From IMG/VR virus record IMGVR_UViG_3300021964_000077, positions 1 to 57,237 of that record: DNA of 57,237 nt; one strand, given 5' to 3'. The notes under the pieces are model-generated. The model did not search any database. It saw only the letters and a program-made list of their open reading frames with translations, and was not told the DNA's origin. The translations under genes and the position numbers were made by a program. This DNA comes from a virus. Below are positions 3,552-23,264 of this stretch, one piece after another; within the stretch, counting starts at the first letter, position 1, and every line of letters begins with the position of its first letter.

Positions 3552-3953
3552 ATGGCCGCAGGAAGGTACGACTTTACTATAGAACAGGGAGCAACACTAA
3601 ACTTCCAGATCGATTATACAGAGAACTGTAAAACCCCTATAGACTTATCAGGATACAATGCACGTATGCAGGTAAGGCCTGTAATAGGTGATCCTACTTC
3701 ATACCTAACTTTATCTAGCAGCTTACAGCCTTGTGGTACTGGCTTAAACATGAGCGGTTCTAATGGAATCACCCCATTAGCATCAGGATCAATCGGAGTA
3801 TTTATTTCAGCTTATTCATCCTCTCTATTAGATTGGGATGGAAAAGCATCATACGATCTAGAGATATACTCAGGCAGTGATAATTGCGAATATGTAGTAA
3901 GGTTGTTAGAAGGTAGAGTAAAACTTAGTAAAGAAATAACCCTTATTCCCTAA
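3552..3953 (+). CDS. Small virion-associated beta protein (unknown)
   Basis: A 133-residue protein starting MAAGRYDFTIEQGATLNF. I know this opening, RYDxTIxQGATFxxxI followed by a PIDLSGY segment, from small phage structural proteins of the adaptor or receptor-binding beta-sandwich type, where it precedes fibre genes. No catalytic residues, signal peptide or membrane segment are visible. It overlaps the start of the downstream collagen-like gene at TAATG (its stop shares an A with the next ATG), so the two are probably translationally coupled, and a role in attaching that fibre is inferred. A function beyond a structural or adaptor role cannot be assigned. Confidence 0.7.
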   Translation: MAAGRYDFTIEQGATLNFQIDYTENCKTPIDLSGYNARMQVRPVIGDPTSYLTLSSSLQPCGTGLNMSGSNGITPLASGSIGVFISAYSSSLLDWDGKASYDLEIYSGSDNCEYVVRLLEGRVKLSKEITLIP

Positions 3954-5713
3954 TGGACTGTAATGTAAAAAAAGTAGTAGTACGTCCCGATTGTACTACA
4001 GTTAAAGTATCTAGCGTAGGAATACCAGGAAAGACTGGATTACAAGGTATACAAGGTCTTCAAGGATTACAAGGTATGCAAGGAACTACCGGCATACAGG
4101 GATTACAAGGTATTCAAGGAGAGAGTATTCAAGGTATCCAAGGGATACAGGGCATTCAAGGACTTCAAGGATTACAAGGACCTCAAGGAGTTCAAGGGCA
4201 GACAGGCGCTACAGGCGCTCAAGGCATTAAAGGAGACGAAGGAACACAGGGAATACAAGGAATACAAGGAATATCGGGTACTGGAGGATCTCAAGGTACA
4301 CAAGGGATTCAAGGCCCACAAGGTTTACAGGGACTTCAAGGATTAGAAGGTTTACAAGGAATACAGGGGTTAACAGGGATTCAAGGTATCCAAGGTGAAC
4401 AAGGACTTCAAGGTATAGCCGGTGAAGGAGCTCAAGGAATACAGGGGTTAACAGGTATTCAAGGAGCAGATGGTACTCAAGGCTTACAAGGAGAGGGTGC
4501 ACAAGGTATCCAAGGTACCACCGGTATTCAAGGATTAGATGGAGTTCAAGGAACAGATGGAGCACAAGGAGTGCAAGGACTAATCGGACTACAGGGACTT
4601 ACTGGTACTCAAGGTCTTATTGGTATACAAGGATCTGACGGTACTCAAGGAATACAGGGAATATCAATTCAAGGTATTCAAGGACTAACTGGTATCCAAG
4701 GACTTGAAGGTGCTCAGGGAATTACCGGAGTAGGAGCTCAAGGTATTCAAGGACTAACTGGTATTCAAGGCACAGATGGAGGAGGTGGAGACTTAGAAAT
4801 ACTAGACGAAGGAGTTCAACTTACTACTGCAGCATCTTCTCTTAACTTTGTAGGAAACGGTATACAAGCAACAAACTCAGGTAACGATGTAACTGTTACT
4901 GTAGAAGAGTCAATGGTAGATACCCAGTTCCTTTTAGACTTGGGTAAAATTGCCTACGGTTCCAACAGCAGCAACAGTAGTGCTATATTTAGCGGATCCG
5001 CTTACTTAGTACTATCTGGTAGCGATATAAATGAAGCAACCTTCAACCTTGCTTCTCCATCCGGTAAATACGGCGGCGAAGGAGTTTGGGGAGGAGTTAA
5101 TATATGGTACGTACACCGGGGACACGATACTCACATAGAGTTCTATGATGTCACAGTAAGTAACGGATACAACACAACAGGAGAACGGACAAACGTGTAC
5201 CTAAACGCAAACCCTAGTAGCATCTTCGGTCCTTGGGTAAACAGTCCTACCCGGATCGCAACCTTAAGAAAGACCGGCTACTACGCTTTCGATACGACTG
5301 CTACAGGCGGAGACGGACAGATGTTATATAGTAGCTACTCCCAGTACTACTCAGATCCTAGGATTGAGGACCAGCGATACATATTAAGCAGTGCTTACAA
5401 TAAGACATCAAACACTAGAGTACAGATTACCGGTAATACAACCTTCGAGCTAAACGAACCATATACGCGATTTGATCTTCAATGGAACGCCTCAGGATAC
5501 ACCATTGTACTTAATCAAGGTACATTACCGCTAGGTCAAATTGCAACAGTACATATAGATTACATCAACAACGGTACTACTGCTAACCTTAAGTACGAAA
5601 AAGTAAACGGAGGAGCAGATACAGAAATTGGCTCATTAGGACCAGGAGCAGGTACTATTACTTTAACTTTTATAGGATTAGTAAACGGCATCTTCTGTTA
5701 CGAACATCCTTAA
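3953..5713 (+). CDS. Collagen-like fibre protein
   Basis: A 586-residue protein in three parts: a short N-terminal segment with two cysteines (about residues 1-25), about 250 residues of G-x-Q/G-x-x triplets dominated by GIQ, GLQ and GTQ, then a non-repetitive C-terminal domain of about 300 residues rich in Tyr, Ser and Asn. Gly-X-Y repeats of this kind form trimeric triple helices in phage fibres; the C-terminal part would be the trimerising or receptor-binding head. Unlike animal collagen it has very little proline, and Q, T and I occupy X and Y positions. It overlaps the upstream small protein by one base. A tail, neck or head fibre role is inferred; which appendage it forms is not visible. 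Confidence 0.82.
   Translation: MDCNVKKVVVRPDCTTVKVSSVGIPGKTGLQGIQGLQGLQGMQGTTGIQGLQGIQGESIQGIQGIQGIQGLQGLQGPQGVQGQTGATGAQGIKGDEGTQGIQGIQGISGTGGSQGTQGIQGPQGLQGLQGLEGLQGIQGLTGIQGIQGEQGLQGIAGEGAQGIQGLTGIQGADGTQGLQGEGAQGIQGTTGIQGLDGVQGTDGAQGVQGLIGLQGLTGTQGLIGIQGSDGTQGIQGISIQGIQGLTGIQGLEGAQGITGVGAQGIQGLTGIQGTDGGGGDLEILDEGVQLTTAASSLNFVGNGIQATNSGNDVTVTVEESMVDTQFLLDLGKIAYGSNSSNSSAIFSGSAYLVLSGSDINEATFNLASPSGKYGGEGVWGGVNIWYVHRGHDTHIEFYDVTVSNGYNTTGERTNVYLNANPSSIFGPWVNSPTRIATLRKTGYYAFDTTATGGDGQMLYSSYSQYYSDPRIEDQRYILSSAYNKTSNTRVQITGNTTFELNEPYTRFDLQWNASGYTIVLNQGTLPLGQIATVHIDYINNGTTANLKYEKVNGGADTEIGSLGPGAGTITLTFIGLVNGIFCYEHP
4033..4785 (+). repeat. Collagen-like triplet repeat tract
   Basis: Nine-base units reading Gly-X-Gln or Gly-X-Y run almost without break, for example GGTATTCAA and GGACTTCAA. 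Synonymous codons vary from unit to unit, so the protein pattern is better conserved than the DNA. Confidence 0.9.
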
Positions 5714-12577: not shown

Positions 12578-15500
12578 ATGGCTCAAAACATTAAACTGAA
12601 ACGCTCTGCGACTGCCGGTAAGGTACCGACTACAGCGCAATTAGATTCTGGAGAGTTAGCAATCAACACTAACGACGGTAAAGTCTACTTTAAAAGAGAC
12701 GATAATACTATCCAGACAATTCTCACTACAGATTCCGAAATTACCGGAAGTATCATTGTCAACGGCAATGTAACAGCATCTGCTTTTACCGGTACTTTAG
12801 ACGGTAATGCAGCAACAGCAACAACTGCTTCTTATGCAGTAACAGCTTCTTATGCAGCATTTGCAGCTACCCCTACAGTACAGGGAGCGCAGGGTACTAC
12901 TGGAGCTCAAGGAACACAAGGAACAACAGGTATACAAGGAACACAGGGTATTCAAGGAATCCAGGGTATTCAAGGAACACAAGGAGTCCAAGGTACTACT
13001 GGTATACAAGGTCTTACCGGTACCCAAGGTACCCAAGGAACCCAAGGAATACAGGGGACCCAAGGAATACAGGGATCAGAAGGATCAGAAGGAGGTTTAT
13101 CAATCGTATATGATGGTATTACTTTCGAAGATACAGCGTATGCTAATGTCAATCAATTAGTTCATACAGAAGCTTCTTCGTTTATATATGCTACAGGATC
13201 TACCGAAGAATGGTGGTTCTCTGATATTGCAGACGGTTTACAAGATGTAAACTACTTCAGCAACCTGTATGATAATATAGTTAACGATGGGTACGATAAG
13301 ATCTACGTTAAGATTGCTAGAAGAGGAGAACCTGAAAAATACCATCTATATGAAGGTACCAGCCCTAGCTTAGTAGCAGGGGACGACTTAAGGTTAGATA
13401 TGAAATATGCCGGAGGTAATTCTACATGGACTGGAGGTACCGGTTCAGTAGAACATATGACCTCTAAAGCCACTTCTTCTACATATAACGGTCAGATTAT
13501 CGTATCGTTTACTCCTGTAAAAGTAGGCTCACAAGGTACTCAAGGTATACAGGGTGTACAAGGTATTCAAGGTACGACTGGATCTCAAGGCACTACAGGT
13601 ATTCAAGGTGATACAGGCACACAAGGAACAACTGGAGCTCAAGGAATTCAAGGTGTTCAAGGAACAACGGGTATTCAAGGAGCCGACGGTACCCAAGGAA
13701 CAACAGGATCTCAAGGCACAACAGGGAGCCAAGGAACAACAGGATCTCAAGGAACTACTGGTACTCAAGGTACCACAGGTACTCAAGGTATCCAAGGAAC
13801 TACTGGTTCTCAAGGTACCACAGGTACTCAGGGTACTACAGGTACCCAAGGAGTACAGGGTACTACTGGTTCTCAAGGTACCACAGGTACTCAGGGTATT
13901 CAAGGAACTACCGGGATACAGGGTGACACCGGTGCCCAGGGAACACAGGGTACTCAAGGAACTCAAGGAATTACTGGTACTCAGGGAACACAAGGTATTC
14001 AAGGTATTAGCGGTGAATCAGCAGCAGTAGGCTTAACTAATAACACAAACAACTACGTCGTAACAGCTACTGGAGATGCTAACACACCTTTTAACGGAGA
14101 AGCTAACTTAGTATTTGATGGTGACTTCTTAGGGGTGGGAACTTCATCACCATTCTCAAGTATACATATTAAATCAGGATCTGACGCACAGTTCTTAATC
14201 GAAACAGATTCACCTTACGATGATGGAGAGGGGTACTCAGCTGGTATTCGATTTAAAGTAGAAGATACAGATACCTACGATCGAGCAAAAGGAGGTATTT
14301 TCTTCTTAAACACTGATGCTCAAGACTGGGGAAGAGGTGAATTGATACTAGCCACTCAAAACGGAGCTAGTAATAGTAACGTAACACCGAATGACTGGAG
14401 GTTAAAACTAACTTTAGATGGAAAGGTTCACACCAAAGGAGACCTCATTGTCAGTGGGTCAATTACAGGTAACGCTTCGTCTGCTACTAATGCAGATCAG
14501 TTAGATAATCAGCACGGTTCGTATTACTTAAATGCTTCAAACCTTAATGCAGGTACGATCAACGATGCTCGCTTACCAGGTACAATATCTTCAGATACTA
14601 CAGGCAACGCAGCAACAGCAACAGCATTAACAGCAGGTAATAAAACTATTACAGGAGACTTAACAGTTACAGGTAACGTAACTGCTCAAGAATTCCACAC
14701 CGAGTTTGTATCTGCTTCAATTGTATACCAATCAGGTTCAACAAAATTCGGTGATACATCAGACGATGTACATTCATTTACAGGTTCTTTAGAGGTAGAT
14801 GGATCTATAGTAGGAGACTTGACCGGTAATGCTGATACAGCAACCACCGCTTCCTACGCTTTATTTGCAGCTACTCCTACAGTACAGGGAGTACAGGGTA
14901 CTCAAGGTATCCAAGGTATTCAGGGTATACAAGGACTTAAAGGACTTCAAGGTACTACTGGCGCCCAAGGAACAACAGGTTCTCAAGGTACTACAGGTTC
15001 ACAAGGAACTACAGGCTCCCAAGGAACTCAAGGTACTACAGGTTCACAAGGTACCACGGGAAGTCAAGGTACTACTGGTACTCAAGGTATAACTGGATCT
15101 CAAGGAACTACGGGAAGTCAAGGTATAACTGGATCTCAAGGTATAACTGGATCTCAAGGTACTACTGGATCCCAAGGTACAACTGGTACTCAAGGAACAA
15201 CAGGGAGTCAAGGTACTACTGGTACTCAAGGTATAACTGGATCTCAAGGTACTACTGGATCCCAAGGTACAACTGGTACTCAAGGTATAACTGGATCTCA
15301 AGGAACAACAGGCTCTCAAGGTACTACTGGTACTCAAGGTATAACTGGATCTCAAGGAACTACGGGAAGTCAAGGAACAACAGGTTCACAAGGTACTCAA
15401 GGTATACAAGGTACTAATGCTACTACAAGTATTACTAACAACGTTAATAACTACGTAGTAACTGCGACAGGAGGTGCAACACCGTTTAACGGTGAATCAA

Positions 15501-16759
15501 ACTTAGTATTTGATGGATCTAAATTAGGTATTAATACCACTTCTCCAGACAATACATTACACGTACGCAACACATCAGGCGGCACTGCCTCGGGTATCTT
15601 AATTGAAACTGATGCTAACGGAATCGGTCAAGCAGGTCTATACTTTAGAGTAGAGGACAATGACGGTAACTTCTACAGAAAAGGAGCTCTTATCATGGAA
15701 AATGAAGGAGATACTTACGGTAGAGGTAAAATGCATATCACATTAGATAATAATGCCGACGCAAATAACGCCGACATCACAGACGCTGTACTTACAGCTA
15801 CCTCAGACAAACTAATTGGTATCGGTACGCAAGATCCTACTGCTAAATTAAACGTAGTAGGAGGAGCTGATGTATTGATCGTAGAAGGATCTGGTTCAAC
15901 AGCCAATACAACCATCTTTGCTATCGATGGAAATAACGGTAGATTATTTGAGATCTCCGATGATCTATCTGATTCTTTATTCTCGGTTAACACTATAGCT
16001 GGGCTACCGGTAATGGAAGCATTCTCCGATAATACAGTAGTGTTAGGAGCTTACAATCAGAATGATTTAGTAATTACAGGATCGTTAGTAGGTATTGGAA
16101 CAGCAACACCCTCTTATAAACTAGATATTAACGGTACAGGTAGATTTACTGGCAGACTTTACTTAGATACACTAGATACAAATACTTCTTCTACAGCAGC
16201 CCTTGTAATGAACGGTTCAGAGGTAGAGAAGAGAACGTTAGGATCTAATGCATTTACAAGTACAGGCTACCTACCACTAACTGGAGGTACTTTATCAGGA
16301 ACACTTACAACCAGACACGTTATCCCGAGTGCTGATAGGACTTATGATTTAGGTACTGATGCAGCAAGGTATAGAATCGTATTCTGTGAGACATTAGATT
16401 CTGCAGGTCTTCATGAAACTAATCTTGCTTCAGGAAGTGTTGCTGAATTAGCTACAGGAACAGTATTAGTTTGGCAAAACGGAGAGAACACACCATGTAC
16501 AGTAGAGGCTGATCACATGAGAATGGGTATAGCCGTGAATGGAAATGCATCTCCATTGATTCAAGGAGCAGAACCTGTACTATGTACCGGAGTAGTAAAC
16601 GAAGGGGATTACCTAATAACCTCCGCAGTAGAAGGTCACGCAAAAGGCATCTCTAGAGAGGAAATGCTACAGCGTAATTTATATGACTGTGTATTAGGAA
16701 AAGCATTGGAAGATGGTTCTGGAGAGAGCTATTTATTAAAGACGTGGATCACGATATAA
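12578..16759 (+). CDS. Giant collagen-like tail fibre with duplicated modules
   Basis: A 1393-residue protein. The N-terminal ~50 residues (MAQNIKLKRSATAGKVPTT, then SGELAINTNDGKVYFKRDD) are an attachment domain common to phage fibres. Then come three collagen-like tracts: about residues 102-171, 317-478 and 769-946. Two similar globular modules follow collagen tracts: NNYVVTATGxxxPFNGExNLVFDG with a later IxFKVED or LYFRVED. Both larger modules are preceded by TASY...FAATPTVQG, so an internal duplication built this protein. The last ~150 residues start at PSADRTYDLGTDAARYRIVF and include VVNEGDYLITSAVEGHAKG, resembling C-terminal fibre-tip domains. Host recognition is the likely role. It follows its own terminator/late-element pair. 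Confidence 0.85.
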   Translation: MAQNIKLKRSATAGKVPTTAQLDSGELAINTNDGKVYFKRDDNTIQTILTTDSEITGSIIVNGNVTASAFTGTLDGNAATATTASYAVTASYAAFAATPTVQGAQGTTGAQGTQGTTGIQGTQGIQGIQGIQGTQGVQGTTGIQGLTGTQGTQGTQGIQGTQGIQGSEGSEGGLSIVYDGITFEDTAYANVNQLVHTEASSFIYATGSTEEWWFSDIADGLQDVNYFSNLYDNIVNDGYDKIYVKIARRGEPEKYHLYEGTSPSLVAGDDLRLDMKYAGGNSTWTGGTGSVEHMTSKATSSTYNGQIIVSFTPVKVGSQGTQGIQGVQGIQGTTGSQGTTGIQGDTGTQGTTGAQGIQGVQGTTGIQGADGTQGTTGSQGTTGSQGTTGSQGTTGTQGTTGTQGIQGTTGSQGTTGTQGTTGTQGVQGTTGSQGTTGTQGIQGTTGIQGDTGAQGTQGTQGTQGITGTQGTQGIQGISGESAAVGLTNNTNNYVVTATGDANTPFNGEANLVFDGDFLGVGTSSPFSSIHIKSGSDAQFLIETDSPYDDGEGYSAGIRFKVEDTDTYDRAKGGIFFLNTDAQDWGRGELILATQNGASNSNVTPNDWRLKLTLDGKVHTKGDLIVSGSITGNASSATNADQLDNQHGSYYLNASNLNAGTINDARLPGTISSDTTGNAATATALTAGNKTITGDLTVTGNVTAQEFHTEFVSASIVYQSGSTKFGDTSDDVHSFTGSLEVDGSIVGDLTGNADTATTASYALFAATPTVQGVQGTQGIQGIQGIQGLKGLQGTTGAQGTTGSQGTTGSQGTTGSQGTQGTTGSQGTTGSQGTTGTQGITGSQGTTGSQGITGSQGITGSQGTTGSQGTTGTQGTTGSQGTTGTQGITGSQGTTGSQGTTGTQGITGSQGTTGSQGTTGTQGITGSQGTTGSQGTTGSQGTQGIQGTNATTSITNNVNNYVVTATGGATPFNGESNLVFDGSKLGINTTSPDNTLHVRNTSGGTASGILIETDANGIGQAGLYFRVEDNDGNFYRKGALIMENEGDTYGRGKMHITLDNNADANNADITDAVLTATSDKLIGIGTQDPTAKLNVVGGADVLIVEGSGSTANTTIFAIDGNNGRLFEISDDLSDSLFSVNTIAGLPVMEAFSDNTVVLGAYNQNDLVITGSLVGIGTATPSYKLDINGTGRFTGRLYLDTLDTNTSSTAALVMNGSEVEKRTLGSNAFTSTGYLPLTGGTLSGTLTTRHVIPSADRTYDLGTDAARYRIVFCETLDSAGLHETNLASGSVAELATGTVLVWQNGENTPCTVEADHMRMGIAVNGNASPLIQGAEPVLCTGVVNEGDYLITSAVEGHAKGISREEMLQRNLYDCVLGKALEDGSGESYLLKTWITI
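12883..15415 (+). repeat. Three collagen-like tracts within one fibre gene
   Basis: The tracts lie at about 12883-13092, 13528-14013 and 14884-15415. The second and third are built largely of GTTGSQ and GTTGTQ units, while the first has more GIQGTQ. In the third tract a longer unit around GTQGITGSQGTTGSQ recurs several times, with near-identical DNA in places, pointing to recent expansion. Confidence 0.9.
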
Positions 16760-16771: not shown

Positions 16772-17230
16772 ATGGGATTTAGAATACACAGAGGAGTCTT
16801 TCAATTTTTGGATACAGGTAACAATACCTACAAAGGTAGATACAGGTTTAACGCAACCGGTAAACTGGTGGAGGTAAACGATAGCGATGATCGTGTAGCT
16901 GATGTCAGTGATACTACTCCTTTATCCGTAAGTAAGAATGGATCAAATGTATTTGTATTAGATTTAAATTCTCGAGCAAACTTTATACTAAGTGCTGCCG
17001 GTACATGGACTTTAAGCTTAACTGTAGGATCTGAAAACGTAGGTCAAACAGGAACCATTATTATAAACAATACAGCAGCCACCACACCAGGAGCTTTGCC
17101 ATCTAATGTTAAAACTCCTAATGGAGATTCAATATCTTGGCAAACAGATAATGGAGATGTTTCTATTTTATCTTATTTAGTAGTAGACACGTCAACAGTT
17201 TTAGTTAATTATATAGGGAACTTCGGTTAA
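16772..17230 (+). CDS. Small fibre-associated protein (unknown)
   Basis: A 152-residue protein lying between the giant collagen-like fibre and the Thr-rich repeat protein, 12 bases after one stop and 8 bases before the next ATG. The N-terminal part, RGVFQFLDTGNNTYKGRYRF, looks like a short beta module. The last ~85 residues, from RANFILSAAGTWTLSL to YIGNFG, resemble a common phage fibre-tip domain in which a strand, a GQTGTIIINN turn and a final VDTSTVLVNYIGNFG recur. It is likely a fibre tip or assembly partner for one of its neighbours. No enzymatic motif is visible. Confidence 0.72.
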   Translation: MGFRIHRGVFQFLDTGNNTYKGRYRFNATGKLVEVNDSDDRVADVSDTTPLSVSKNGSNVFVLDLNSRANFILSAAGTWTLSLTVGSENVGQTGTIIINNTAATTPGALPSNVKTPNGDSISWQTDNGDVSILSYLVVDTSTVLVNYIGNFG

Positions 17231-17238
17231 AAAATACC

Positions 17239-20200
17239 ATGAAGAGCATAGGTTTCTGGGACATATACGAATGGAACACATCCGCGAACACGAGTACTAC
17301 ACGTAATACTTCCCGTAGCACGTCTAGCAGTACTACTACCGTATGGAATACTGCCAAATCAACTACAACAACTTGGAATACCTCTCAATCAACAACTACA
17401 AACTGGAATACAACAGTTAGTACAAGTAAGAGTACTACCACAACCTGGAACACATCACAGAGTACTACCACAACCTGGAACACTACTCAAAACACAACTA
17501 CTACATTTAATACCAGTAGGTTGACAAGTAAATCTACTACGACCACGTGGAATACTACACAAAGTACAATAACAACCTGGAATACCACTAAAAGTACAAC
17601 CACAACATTTAATACTTCAGTATCAACTAGTAGAAACACCACCACAACCTGGAACACTACCAGGAGTACTACTACAACCTGGAATACTAGTCAAAGTACT
17701 ACAACAACTTTTATAACAAGTCAAAACACCACCAGGAGTACCACAACAACTTGGAGTACTTCTAAAAGCACTACAACTACATTTGCTACTAGTAGAAGTA
17801 CCACTACAACATTTAACACTAATACCAGTACCACTACAACATTTAACACTACTTGGAGTACATCAAAAAGTACAACAACAACATTTAACACCACCAGGTC
17901 AACCACTACTAGCTGGAATACAACTCAGAGTACTACAACTTCGTGGACAACATATTGGAACACTACAAGATCAACAGTGACTACTTGGAACACTACAAGA
18001 TCAACGGTGACTACATTCAACACGACCGCAAGTACAACAACAACATTTAATACAACCTGGAATACTACTAGAAGTACCACTACAACGTTTAATACGACTA
18101 GATCAACTACAACTACGTTTATAACAAGTCAAAGTACGACAACAACTTTTAATACAACTTGGAACACAAGTAAAAGTACTACTACTAGTTGGAATACGAC
18201 AAAGAGTACTACAACAACCTGGACAACTAGTCAAGGTACTTCTCACAGTACTACAACTACATTCAATACTACTAGAAGTACAACAACAGTCTACAATACG
18301 ACTAAGAGTACTACCACGACATTCAACACTAATGCAAGTACGACAACTACTTGGCTATCTTATTGGAATACTACTAAGAGTACAGTTAGTAGCTGGACAA
18401 CATCTACGAATACAACTACAACGTTTAATACTACATGGTCCACTTCTAGAAGCACAACTACTACTTGGACAACGAATACTACAGTAAGTACTACTAGAGC
18501 AACTACTACTAGTTGGAATACTACTAGAAGTACTACAACAACATTCAATACCTCTAAAAGTACAACAACAGTCTACCTAACTTCGAAGTCAACAGCGACT
18601 ACTTATGTAAGTTACTGGAATACTACTAGAAGTACAACAACAACATTCAATACTACAAGAAGTACGACAACGACTTGGGTAACAAACACTACAGCAAACA
18701 CTACTAGAAATACAACCACTAGTTGGAATACCACTAAAAGTACAACCACAACCTGGAACACATCACAGAGTACTACCACAACCTGGGTAACAACGTGGGA
18801 CACAACAACAGTTTACATAAGTTACTGGAACACAAGCCGTAATACGACTACATCGTTCAATACTACTTGGAATACTAGCTGGAATACGACAACCACCTGG
18901 GTAACAAACACTACAGTAAGTACATCACGAGCTACTACTACGACTTGGAATACCACTCAAAGCACAGTTACTACCTGGGCTACTTCTCGAACTACAACCA
19001 CAACTTGGACTTCGTATTGGAACACCTCTAGAGCAACTACAACTACGTTTAACACTACTAGGAACACCTCTACAACGTGGACTACATACTATAACACTAC
19101 CAGGAGTACTACAACAACATACAACACTGCCCAGAATACAACAACAACATGGGTTTCGTATTGGAATACTGGTAGGAGCACAACAACAACATTTAACACC
19201 ACAGTATCAACAAGTAGGTCAACTACTACTACATTTAGTACATCTATAGGAACAACTACTACGTGGTACACTAACTTAGGTCTCAATACAAGTAAGAATA
19301 CGACAACAACTTGGAATACTACAAGATCTACATCAACAAGTAGATCTACATCTAAGTCAACTGTCACAACGTGGATTACCTATAAAAATACAACTACTAC
19401 ATTTAATACAACCTGGAGTACTAGTAAGAGTACTACAACAACTTGGGTAACAACCTGGTCAACAACCTATACTGTCTCTACAGCAAACGCAACGACTACC
19501 TCATGGACAACGTATTTCAACACAACTAAAAGTACTACAACGACTTTTGGAACTACATGGAATACTACAAGATCTACATCTACTTCTAGAAGTACAACAA
19601 CAACATTTAACACTACATTTAACACTACTAAGTCAACCGTGACCACCTGGACAACAGGAGTATCAGACCCAGGATGTGATTGTTTCCAATTCTTTGTAGA
19701 TGCTTCTCCTTCAGGGACAGTAGAGTATTTTGATTGTGGCTCAGGAACAACAGTAACCGCAGATGTTCCTCGTGGGGGACTAATGATCTGTGCCTGCCCA
19801 AACTATGAAATTATTGGTCCTGAAGTAATTGAGGGTCCTCTGGAACCTTGTGGATCCATCCCACCGTCCGATACTACCTTTAATACTACCAGGAGTACAA
19901 CAACAACATATAACACTTCTAGAAGTACTAGCAAGAGTACAACAACAACGTTTAATACTACAACAACCTGGAATACTACTAGGAACACCACTAAAAGTAC
20001 TACCACAACCTTCCAAACATCAGCTTCTACACAGATAGAGACTACTACAACATGGAATAGTTACTGGAATGTGAACACAACCAGGGAAACATCTCAAAGT
20101 ACGACTACAGTATACAATACAACTGTTAGTACAAGTAGATCTACGAACACTGGCTTCAACACTACTCGAAACACCACTACTACATTTAATACGTCCTGGA

Positions 20201-22290
20201 ATACTACTACAACGTGGAACACATCACAAAGTACAACAACAACGTATATTAGTTCATGGAACACTACCAGGAGTACTACAACCGCATGGAACACCTCTAA
20301 AGCAACAACTACAACATTTAATACTACATGGTCCACTTCTAAAAGCACAAGTACTATTTGGACAACGAATACAACTGCAAGTACTATTAGATCAACTACA
20401 ACTACCTGGAACACTACAAAAAGTACAACAACAACCTGGGAGACAAGTATAAACACCGGTAGGAGTACTACTACAACCTGGGCGACTACCCAGAGTACAA
20501 CTACAACTTGGGTAACTAATACAACTGCAACTACTTCTAGAAGCACAACAACTACCTGGAACACTACAAGAAGTACAACAACTACCTGGAACACTACAAG
20601 AAGTACAACCACCACCTGGACTTCATACTGGAATACTACTAGAAGTACAACAGAAAATAGGAATACTACGAGAGGTACAGGTAGATCAACCACCACCACC
20701 TGGATAACTAACACAACAGGAAGTACTCAGAAAATTACAAGTACAACTAGAAGTACTAATAGAAATACAACAACTACCTGGAACACTTCAAAAAGTACAA
20801 CAACTACATTTGTTACTTCAAAGACTACAGCTACAACATGGATTTCATATTGGAACACTACAAAAAGTACAACAACAACATTTAATACTACTAGAAGTAC
20901 CACTACAACGTTTTCAACTTCAGCGGTAACAAGTACTGTACGTAATACTACGACGACTTGGAACACTTCTCATGCAACTACAACTACATGGAACACTTCA
21001 AAAAGTACAACGACTACCTGGATTACTAGTCAGAGTACAACTACAACATGGACTTCATACTGGAATACTAGTAGGAGTACTACTACAAGCTGGAACACTT
21101 CACAGAGCACTTCACGTTCAACGGTAACTTCCTATATAGTAAATACTTCAACAACAACAACGTGGGTAACTAGCGGAGTAGCTAATACTACTAAGAGTAC
21201 AACAACAACCTGGAACACCAGTAAAAGTACGACGACGACTTGGAACACTTCTCATGCAACTACAACTACATGGAACACTACTAAGTCAACTACAACTTCC
21301 TATACCACGTATTGGAACACTTCAAAAAGCACAACAACTACTTGGATTACCAGTCAAAGTACTACTACAACGTTTAACACAACAGTTAGCACCAGCAGAG
21401 CTACAACAACAAATTGGAATACCAGTAAAAGTACTACTACAACATTTGCAACTACTAAGAGTACTACTACAACTTTTGCTACAACAGTAAGTACTAGTAG
21501 AGCTACTACAACTACGTGGAACACTACTAAGAATACAACAACTACTTGGAACACTACACAAAATACGACTACTACATGGACTACTAGTCAAGGTACTACT
21601 AGGAGCACCACTACCACATGGAGTACTAGTCAAAGTACAACTACTACATTTAATACGAGTCAATCTACTACAACAACGTTTAATACGACTATTAGTACAG
21701 ATAGATCTACTACCACAACTTGGGCTACAAGTAAATCAACAACTACCACGTTTAACACAACGAAATCAACGACTACTACATTTAATACGAATGCAAGTAC
21801 AACAACTACCTGGAGCACATCCTGGAACACTACTAGAGCTACAACAACTACCTGGAGCACTACTAGAGCTACAACAACTACCTGGAGCACTAACACAAGC
21901 ACCACAACTACATTTAATACAACATGGTCTACCAGTAAATTAACTACGACTACGTTTAACACTACGTACAGTACAGTAACAACCTGGAACACTACCCAGA
22001 GTACTACTACATCCTTTACAACAACCTTTAATACAACTAAGGTAACGGTTACAACCTGGAACACTACTAGAAGTACCGCCACGTACTGGAATACTACCCA
22101 GAGTACTACTACAACATTTAATACCACTTGGGTTACTTCAAGATCAACTACTACAAGTTGGAACACTACCAGAAGTACAACAACAACATTCCAGACTCAG
22201 ACAATCACCCTTACAACCTGGACTACTAGCTGGGTTACTTCTTGGAGCACAGGAACAACATGGTACACAGACTTTTACTATACTCCGTAA
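17239..22290 (+). CDS. Giant Thr-rich tandem-repeat protein
   Basis: A 1683-residue protein. After about 12 residues (MKSIGFWDIYEW) almost everything is a degenerate ten-residue unit, (R/K/Q)STTTT(W/F)NT(T/S), with inserted four-residue steps such as WNTT and occasional SYWNTT units. Around residues 806-876 the repeat is broken by a distinct insert carrying CDC, a lone C, CAC and one further C, with PRGGLMICACPNYEII and two Pro-rich flanks. The last ~30 residues are aromatic. There is no signal peptide or membrane segment. The spacing of Trp/Phe, Asn and basic residues suggests a fibrous or solenoid structure; the very high Thr content would also suit O-glycosylation. It follows fibre genes and precedes a sugar cassette. 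I know no named family; a virion fibre or surface protein is inferred. Confidence 0.8.
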   Translation: MKSIGFWDIYEWNTSANTSTTRNTSRSTSSSTTTVWNTAKSTTTTWNTSQSTTTNWNTTVSTSKSTTTTWNTSQSTTTTWNTTQNTTTTFNTSRLTSKSTTTTWNTTQSTITTWNTTKSTTTTFNTSVSTSRNTTTTWNTTRSTTTTWNTSQSTTTTFITSQNTTRSTTTTWSTSKSTTTTFATSRSTTTTFNTNTSTTTTFNTTWSTSKSTTTTFNTTRSTTTSWNTTQSTTTSWTTYWNTTRSTVTTWNTTRSTVTTFNTTASTTTTFNTTWNTTRSTTTTFNTTRSTTTTFITSQSTTTTFNTTWNTSKSTTTSWNTTKSTTTTWTTSQGTSHSTTTTFNTTRSTTTVYNTTKSTTTTFNTNASTTTTWLSYWNTTKSTVSSWTTSTNTTTTFNTTWSTSRSTTTTWTTNTTVSTTRATTTSWNTTRSTTTTFNTSKSTTTVYLTSKSTATTYVSYWNTTRSTTTTFNTTRSTTTTWVTNTTANTTRNTTTSWNTTKSTTTTWNTSQSTTTTWVTTWDTTTVYISYWNTSRNTTTSFNTTWNTSWNTTTTWVTNTTVSTSRATTTTWNTTQSTVTTWATSRTTTTTWTSYWNTSRATTTTFNTTRNTSTTWTTYYNTTRSTTTTYNTAQNTTTTWVSYWNTGRSTTTTFNTTVSTSRSTTTTFSTSIGTTTTWYTNLGLNTSKNTTTTWNTTRSTSTSRSTSKSTVTTWITYKNTTTTFNTTWSTSKSTTTTWVTTWSTTYTVSTANATTTSWTTYFNTTKSTTTTFGTTWNTTRSTSTSRSTTTTFNTTFNTTKSTVTTWTTGVSDPGCDCFQFFVDASPSGTVEYFDCGSGTTVTADVPRGGLMICACPNYEIIGPEVIEGPLEPCGSIPPSDTTFNTTRSTTTTYNTSRSTSKSTTTTFNTTTTWNTTRNTTKSTTTTFQTSASTQIETTTTWNSYWNVNTTRETSQSTTTVYNTTVSTSRSTNTGFNTTRNTTTTFNTSWNTTTTWNTSQSTTTTYISSWNTTRSTTTAWNTSKATTTTFNTTWSTSKSTSTIWTTNTTASTIRSTTTTWNTTKSTTTTWETSINTGRSTTTTWATTQSTTTTWVTNTTATTSRSTTTTWNTTRSTTTTWNTTRSTTTTWTSYWNTTRSTTENRNTTRGTGRSTTTTWITNTTGSTQKITSTTRSTNRNTTTTWNTSKSTTTTFVTSKTTATTWISYWNTTKSTTTTFNTTRSTTTTFSTSAVTSTVRNTTTTWNTSHATTTTWNTSKSTTTTWITSQSTTTTWTSYWNTSRSTTTSWNTSQSTSRSTVTSYIVNTSTTTTWVTSGVANTTKSTTTTWNTSKSTTTTWNTSHATTTTWNTTKSTTTSYTTYWNTSKSTTTTWITSQSTTTTFNTTVSTSRATTTNWNTSKSTTTTFATTKSTTTTFATTVSTSRATTTTWNTTKNTTTTWNTTQNTTTTWTTSQGTTRSTTTTWSTSQSTTTTFNTSQSTTTTFNTTISTDRSTTTTWATSKSTTTTFNTTKSTTTTFNTNASTTTTWSTSWNTTRATTTTWSTTRATTTTWSTNTSTTTTFNTTWSTSKLTTTTFNTTYSTVTTWNTTQSTTTSFTTTFNTTKVTVTTWNTTRSTATYWNTTQSTTTTFNTTWVTSRSTTTSWNTTRSTTTTFQTQTITLTTWTTSWVTSWSTGTTWYTDFYYTP
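17275..22200 (+). repeat. Thr-rich ten-residue coding repeats
   Basis: Units of about 30 bases run from 17275 to 19656 and from about 19871 to 22200, separated by the Cys-containing insert. All four Thr codons are mixed and synonymous choices change between adjacent units, so most neighbours are not identical at DNA level. A few longer near-copies occur, such as those at 17440-17490 and 18740-18786. Confidence 0.92.
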
Positions 22291-22367: not shown

Positions 22368-23264
22368 ATGGAGATGTTCAACAAGAACGTGGCTAAAGAA
22401 CGCATTGGTCACTTAAAGAAAAGTAAAGCGTTAGATCCTCTAAGAGACGTAGAGAGGTATTTCTTAAAACAAATCAGGAAGTACAATATTGAGACAAGCT
22501 ATGATGTTCTTGCTCAAGAAATTCCGTACTTTAAAACAATGGCATACACAGAATTTGCTACATGTTTTATGATGCATCCTCTTAACCTAGATTTAAGGTT
22601 AACTCAAATAATGGAAGCAGCACAAGACGATGACTCTGAAGAAAAAGATTTTGTAAGTTATTTCCGTTCAAATATCGAAGGTAAGTTAGCAAATAAATAT
22701 CAAGATAGAGCAACAGATTTTAACGATTTTCACGAAGTAGACAACATTGTAGTACTTCCAGGATCTAATAAATTAAAATCAAACACCTGCTTGAATAAGT
22801 TACATTACATTAAAAAGACTCATGATGATAATGTATATTTTAAACCTCACCCAATCACAACACACCAGGTCATTGGAGAACTGAAAGATATGTTCGGCGA
22901 AGATTCAATTCTACCACGCGATATCGATATGTACCATTTCTTACAACAAGCTGATAAAGTTTACGGTACACACATTACAGAGTCTACAATTTATGCTGCA
23001 TCTCTAGGGAAGGAAATTGAACCAGTTGATGTATATAATGGAATCGAACGAGGATCATTCTATCATGTTAATAAATTCTTATTTGAGAATAGAGATAATC
23101 CTCAACCGTGGATTAATAAGACTCTATCTAGCCATAAATCGGGTATTATCTGTCCTCAAATAGAAGAAGATTGGAGAGAGAAGTTAGACGCTTACCTAGA
23201 GTACATGTACGAAAAAAGAGAGACGTACAAGAATTGGTTTATTGAAGGTAAAAAGAAGAAATAA
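22368..23264 (+). CDS. Capsule-synthesis / Kdo-transferase-like protein
   Basis: A 298-residue protein. The C-terminal half has the pattern of the capsule synthesis family (KpsC/KpsS-type, GT-B fold): VYFKPHPITT at about residue 161, then a helix, then a Rossmann-type DKVYGTHITESTIYAASLGK with a small residue before EPVDVY. In that family the KPHP and the ST/ES..E.. segment bind the nucleotide-sugar donor, CMP-Kdo in the Kdo transferases. The N-terminal half is helical and not recognised. It is the first gene after a host-like promoter, upstream of kdsB/kdsA, which make CMP-Kdo, so it could be the enzyme that uses it. It is short for a complete GT-B enzyme. The family match is suggestive, not proven. 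Confidence 0.55.
   Translation: MEMFNKNVAKERIGHLKKSKALDPLRDVERYFLKQIRKYNIETSYDVLAQEIPYFKTMAYTEFATCFMMHPLNLDLRLTQIMEAAQDDDSEEKDFVSYFRSNIEGKLANKYQDRATDFNDFHEVDNIVVLPGSNKLKSNTCLNKLHYIKKTHDDNVYFKPHPITTHQVIGELKDMFGEDSILPRDIDMYHFLQQADKVYGTHITESTIYAASLGKEIEPVDVYNGIERGSFYHVNKFLFENRDNPQPWINKTLSSHKSGIICPQIEEDWREKLDAYLEYMYEKRETYKNWFIEGKKKK

Follow-up and report, generated by a model that had tools for sequence, protein, structure and literature searches.

Gene content and repeat architecture at the locus

The window, that is, the whole stretch of 57,237 nucleotides analysed here, encodes a head-tail adaptor, a tail sheath and collagen-like fibres, and among these genes lies an open frame for a long threonine-rich protein, the array gene. 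The features relevant to this work are the following:

12578..16759, + strand: collagen-like tail fibre protein (PF01391, 5.6e-61; phrog_5073, tail fibre)
16772..17230, + strand: 152-aa ORF between the collagen-like fibre gene and the array gene, without Pfam or PHROG match
17239..22290, + strand: array gene, an ATG-started open frame for a Thr-rich two-arm protein of 1683 aa, with relatives in ~150 viral loci
17239..17283, + strand: conserved N-terminal motif MKSIGFWDIYEWNTS (GF..I..WNT class), recurring at the N-termini of fused and split "A" proteins
17239..19656, + strand: N-arm, residues 1-806, in strict parity and complementary by sequence to the C-arm when this is read antiparallel
19657..19866, + strand: central 70-aa domain, residues 807-876, which breaks the repeat; relative L106 carries a comparable Cys domain in the same position
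19867..22287, + strand: C-arm, residues 877-1683, ending in FYYTP; its register mirrors that of the N-arm, with all three His opposite Tyr
22368..23264, + strand: conserved partner gene, 298 aa, phrog_26179, a family found directly downstream of arrays

Upstream of the array gene, the structural module encodes two collagen-like proteins with GXQ/GXT repeats (3953-5713 and 12578-16759). According to the tail sheath, the nearest named phages are the Flavobacterium phages "immuto" (55% over 95%), a kinship that suggests a Bacteroidota host for the window. No array was found in 150 of the 160 kb of one "immuto" phage, indicating that the array gene lies outside the fixed gene set of that lineage.

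The partner family occurs directly downstream of the array in 97 of the 103 loci with enough downstream sequence, and was also found in Vibrio phage KVP40, Caulobacter phages and Stenotrophomonas phage DLP6; this unannotated family is also represented in loci L179, L178 and L177. Its members display conserved K-P-H-P and S-E motifs, which recall HP-motif glycosyltransferases and allow a motif-level guess at that function. A search with 12 members gave one weak polysialyltransferase match below the cut-off (E 0.019), and the partner gene had no Pfam or NCBIfam match above the cut-off and no PDB match.

The array protein is composed of 47% Thr and 14% Ser, and its autocorrelation reaches 0.48 at lag 10 over a background of ~0.2-0.28, with further peaks at lags 14, 24, 34, 44, 48 and 58. 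All repeat modules are of even length, combining [WFY]-N-T-[TS] (4 residues) with [KRQ]-S-T-T-T-T (6 residues); consequently, [WFY]xT motifs are spaced by 4, 6, 10, 14, 16, 20, 24, 26 or 34 residues and never by an odd number, the sole exception being the 77-residue jump over the insert. Apart from a few residues, one parity is taken by W, F, K, R, Q and H and the other by N and S throughout both arms, the pattern expected of an uninterrupted beta-strand whose two faces differ. The insert sits exactly in the middle of the chain (806 / 70 / 807 residues), and all six Cys of the protein are confined to it. A sequence-only reading had proposed a 1683-residue frame of ~10-residue Thr-rich units at 17239-22290, interrupted by a Cys-containing insert; frame, composition and lag-10 autocorrelation agree with it, and the insert is placed at residues 807-876. 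Residue parity and the exact mid-chain position of the insert are features that this reading missed.

The same reading knew no characterised family with this unit, and this holds for Pfam, PHROGs, PDB and the papers searched. The whole protein had no match in Pfam, PHROGs, PDB or a tblastn search of phages, the last of these being a negative weakened by the low-complexity filter; the insert and the N-terminus, each searched by itself, likewise gave no phage match. The best PDB matches of the array protein were antibody chains (E 0.006-0.16), which we judged compositional and rejected. With 24 Gly in 1683 residues, the protein has no collagen Gly-X-Y repeat, and a C-terminal Peptidase_S74 domain is absent.

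Fused and split relatives in viral genomes

A degenerate DNA pattern retrieved 42 stretches from viral contigs in a first scan and at least 120 in a second, and 191 array ORFs from 151 viral loci were extracted among the matches listed. The same pattern, searched in one genome each for 84,980 prokaryote species (GTDB), gave 19 single matches and no array; thus, the arrays appear to be viral. In one group of relatives both arms are fused, with an axis at mid-length, and in another they are encoded by two adjacent genes of matched length. Fused members carry a central domain or a turn, which in L067 is merely NLPGKGGGSQ. Split A proteins consist of the conserved N-terminal motif, an arm and, at the C-terminus, a domain that may be S74-like, Hint-like or of another kind; split B proteins often start with MPNTS, followed by the arm. 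The A protein of L135 bears an S74 chaperone domain (26.2 bits, cut-off 22), and such domains on relatives suggest trimers.

Diversity was also observed at the chain ends and inserts. The A-protein C-termini of L001, L005, L010, L012, L016, L017 and L101 display a Hint/intein-like domain (ECIVEGTLVHI ... FFANGILTHN) in the position of the S74 chaperone, with Pfam Intein_splicing (1.2e-4) and Hint_2 (0.004) matches both below the cut-off; self-processing or crosslinking is a possible function of these ends. Larger inserts of ~150-190 aa, central or late, occur in the L030, L024, L132, L165 and L172 arrays, and the one tested had no Pfam match. In a fused group including L066, L087 and L116, the chain opens with MAIYVNDSGTLRQ, and its C-terminal end displays ERITASAAGTIFDTEVSS and, some residues further on, FWDGSQWSE; both ends thus carry small domains that presumably sit at the base. 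Further, L151:8212-9300 is a near copy of the L095 protein with a stop codon within the central domain.

Antiparallel complementarity between the arms

For the register search one arm was reversed, and the aromatics W, F and Y, taken as one class, were placed opposite the class K, R, H and Q. Every arm pair of comparable length displayed a single best antiparallel aromatic-basic offset, located near the tip, with z values of 6.8-33.6 among pairs that are not all independent, several fused and split sequences being related. Parallel pairing was rejected, since no tested pair gave a comparable peak. In the window protein, 791 positions were aligned, with 129 of 186 aromatics opposite K, R, H or Q, three aromatic-aromatic and no basic-basic facings; this count includes nine small register shifts, one single register giving 84 of 186. 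The gapped antiparallel score was 744, against 637±15 in a module-shuffle null (maximum 676, n=300) and only 363 in the parallel direction. In the split pair L001, aromatics face a basic residue in 88 of 102 and 99 of 113 cases.

Shuffling the order of the modules (n=200) keeps the local repeat, yet it destroys the pairing effect in the longer pairs, for which all shuffles fell below the true partner; some short arms were reached by shuffles. When arms were swapped between phages (median 6), nearly all swaps fell below the own partner, the highest ones being between close relatives. An unbiased axis scan placed the axis at 0.50-0.53 of the length in strong fused cases. A search for a second register, the signal expected of a six-stranded bundle, gave satellite peaks that correspond only to the repeat periods. 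In these alignments, the two arms run in opposite directions and correspond to each other one residue at a time.

The pairing also displays residue specificity. Among 237 pairs of His with an aromatic, Tyr is the partner in 233 (Trp in 3, Phe in 1), versus 102±6 (maximum 124 of 2000) in a stratified permutation with partners shuffled within each protein; this preference is not imposed by the register search, which lumps W/F/Y and K/R/H/Q. Gln stands opposite Trp or Phe 251 times and opposite Tyr 19 times. Asn faces Ser 732 times versus 225 expected, in stretches preselected for good aromatic-basic pairing and with an expectation that parity by itself already raises. Only three His occur in the 1683 residues of the window protein, and all of them stand opposite Tyr (H336-Y1355, Y352-H1339 and Y446-H1245), sharing one register with a position sum of 1691.

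Insertions and deletions are mirrored between arms. Comparison of L092 with L147 revealed indels of 2, 10, 12, 8 and 14 residues at 111, 209, 226, 274 and 389 residues from the tip in the A gene, and the same series at 111, 210, 226, 274 and 382 in the B gene, in addition to two 1-residue gaps in the A gene without match in B. Five indels are likewise mirrored between the arms of the fused proteins of L066 and L087, and one (30 and 30 residues) between L104 and L127. Since an indel of 10 residues can be placed in more than one way where the repeat is regular, it is the irregular sizes that carry weight. These compensated indels constitute the strongest evidence for arms that run next to each other over their whole length. 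Arm lengths agree as well: among fused ORFs that are complete and whose insert can be recognised, most have two arms, of 63 to 816 residues, within ~15% of each other, with L030 and L172 as exceptions, and the A and B arms of split pairs are mostly matched (L001, 968/974; L077, 1136/1139; L092, 553/554; L147, 527/528). A correlation of arm lengths was given no weight, its fused set having been filtered for similar arms. Equality of arm length by itself could be caused in part by a common duplication.

A candidate out-and-back fibre and its alternatives

We consider it quite likely that the protein forms a virion fibre whose two arms pair as one antiparallel beta-hairpin. The chain would leave the base at its N-terminus, where the conserved motif MKSIGFWDIYEWNTS would act as the anchor to the virion, reach the central Cys domain after ~800 residues of beta conformation, and return for ~800 residues alongside itself; the Cys domain would constitute the tip and may bind the receptor. 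Register and arm length would be set by the sequence, with aromatics opposite Lys, Arg, His or Gln (Tyr with His; Trp or Phe with Gln), Asn opposite Ser and Thr opposite Thr, and the even length of all modules would follow from the alternation of side chains between the two faces. Other phages would have this hairpin divided at its tip, with two genes encoding products of matched length and register. With ~0.33 nm for every residue, an arm would measure roughly 250 nm, and several hairpins are probably bundled, three as in T4 gp37. Further, we hold it to be rather probable that this represents a natural sequence-coded protein duplex, in which each strand, sometimes encoded by a separate gene, specifies its partner, register and length by a residue rule, and both must evolve together.

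The sequence-only reading had offered a fibrous or solenoid virion protein. Its fibrous part is favoured by the structural gene module, the trimeric-fibre chaperone domain in relatives and the out-and-back architecture, and its solenoid part is not, given the antiparallel arms and irregular indels. A single-chain beta-solenoid with a 10- or 34-residue unit per coil would indeed account for the periods of 10 and 34, the near-invariant Thr ladder and the solenoid-like units; however, the number of residues per coil is not constant, and a coil predicts neither mirrored arm pairing, nor the His-Tyr rule, nor equal arms. Indels between related arms span 2-44 residues (including 2, 6, 8, 12, 14, 22, 24, 30, 32 and 44), those between close relatives are not multiples of any coil, and this variety argues against any fixed coil, making a solenoid highly improbable. 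A mucin-like O-glycosylated coat, in which the threonines serve as sugar acceptors and the fold is of little weight, is suggested by a Thr+Ser content of 61% and by the almost obligate downstream gene, a candidate glycosyltransferase according to its motifs and weak polysialyltransferase match. We regard it as very unlikely, since a disordered chain could do without parity, a set register, His-Tyr pairs and compensated indels, and the partner gene has no Pfam or NCBIfam match above the cut-off. The Bacteroidota O-glycosylation motif is D[ST][AILVMT], and it occurs only twice in the window protein. Glycosylation of an ordered zipper is possible.

An origin of the mirror complementarity in nucleic acid, as an inverted repeat or a long mRNA hairpin, has almost no probability: a hairpin gene would show antiparallel complementarity, but Thr codons ACN opposite ACN set C against C, and the Tyr-His and Asn-Ser pairs are not codon-complementary. 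A DNA inverted repeat was rejected, the repeats in the gene being short (<=29 nt, 72-89%) and away from the mirrored places. A real zipper could alternatively have a role other than adhesion, for instance as a filament for crosslinking, a scaffold, a decoration of the capsid or a ruler of length, given that matched lengths could measure or span, and that some relatives end in Hint-like domains instead of a tip. We regard such a role as unlikely, since the array gene lies among tail fibre genes, and relatives carry the S74 chaperone and variable central domains, as in receptor-binding fibres.

The out-and-back fibre finds a parallel in gp37, the tip of the T4 long tail fibre, whose chain passes outward to a receptor-binding head, a central segment, and then returns, forming a six-stranded antiparallel beta needle (Bartual et al. 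2010, as described in PMC9659904 and PMC7291167). The window protein shares, in its sequence, a central domain between two arms of antiparallel register. The gp37 needle is contained within ~215 residues and three chains, whereas array proteins reach up to 1136 residues per arm and differ in their two-residue Thr repeat, their aromatic-basic and His-Tyr rule, and their two-gene versions. Among PDB chains, no solved structure matched by sequence, and neither gp37 nor any other fibre tip of known structure showed meaningful homology to the window protein. Two AlphaFold2 attempts gave no confident arm structure (pLDDT ~30-40 for the L104 arms and 28 for a tight-turn segment), results that, being based on single chains and 7-9 aligned sequences, weigh little either way. 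Some split A proteins share an S74-like end with S74-chaperone fibres and tailspikes (PF13884, endosialidase type), whereas the window protein has GF..I..WNT and FYYTP at its ends and no S74. Collagen-like phage tail fibres (PF01391), two of which are encoded nearby, are likewise built of repeats, but the window protein has no Gly-X-Y triplets and its putative pairing is antiparallel and residue-coded. Designed cation-pi or aromatic-Lys beta-hairpin peptides are short and contain cross-strand aromatic-basic pairs; the arrays share such pairs, but their rule is natural and extends over hundreds of residues and between two genes.

A phage-fibre role is of a known kind. For the repeat class, together with a readable strand-to-strand pairing of compensated lengths, the libraries and open-access papers searched gave no precedent, nor did they describe a protein whose two beta-strands, hundreds of residues long, pair according to a legible residue code and offset each other's indels even between genes; no proteomics or microscopy on array phages was found. 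If true, this reading provides a rule that leads from sequence to structure for a large group of virion proteins which lack annotation and which repeat filters hide from standard searches, explains how phages may build ~250 nm fibres from one or two genes, and points to addressable two-strand protein filaments.

Small versions appear to exist in cultivated phages, Caulobacter phage Lullwater being a possible further case. An axis scan of Lullwater gp41, BL199 gp042 and Cr30 AGS81089 revealed a convincing axis in none, nor was a clear one seen in the Thr-rich neighbours from Caulobacter phages, and miniatures are therefore claimed only for KVP40.0254 and its relative in phage VS2. The small version in KVP40, and the possible one in Lullwater, open the fibre reading to testing now. 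KVP40.0254 is a 197-residue Thr-rich protein encoded two genes upstream of the KVP40 partner-family gene; around an axis at VTKGSY it displays nine aromatic-basic pairs and zero clashes, and the VS2 relative displays ten, also with zero clashes.
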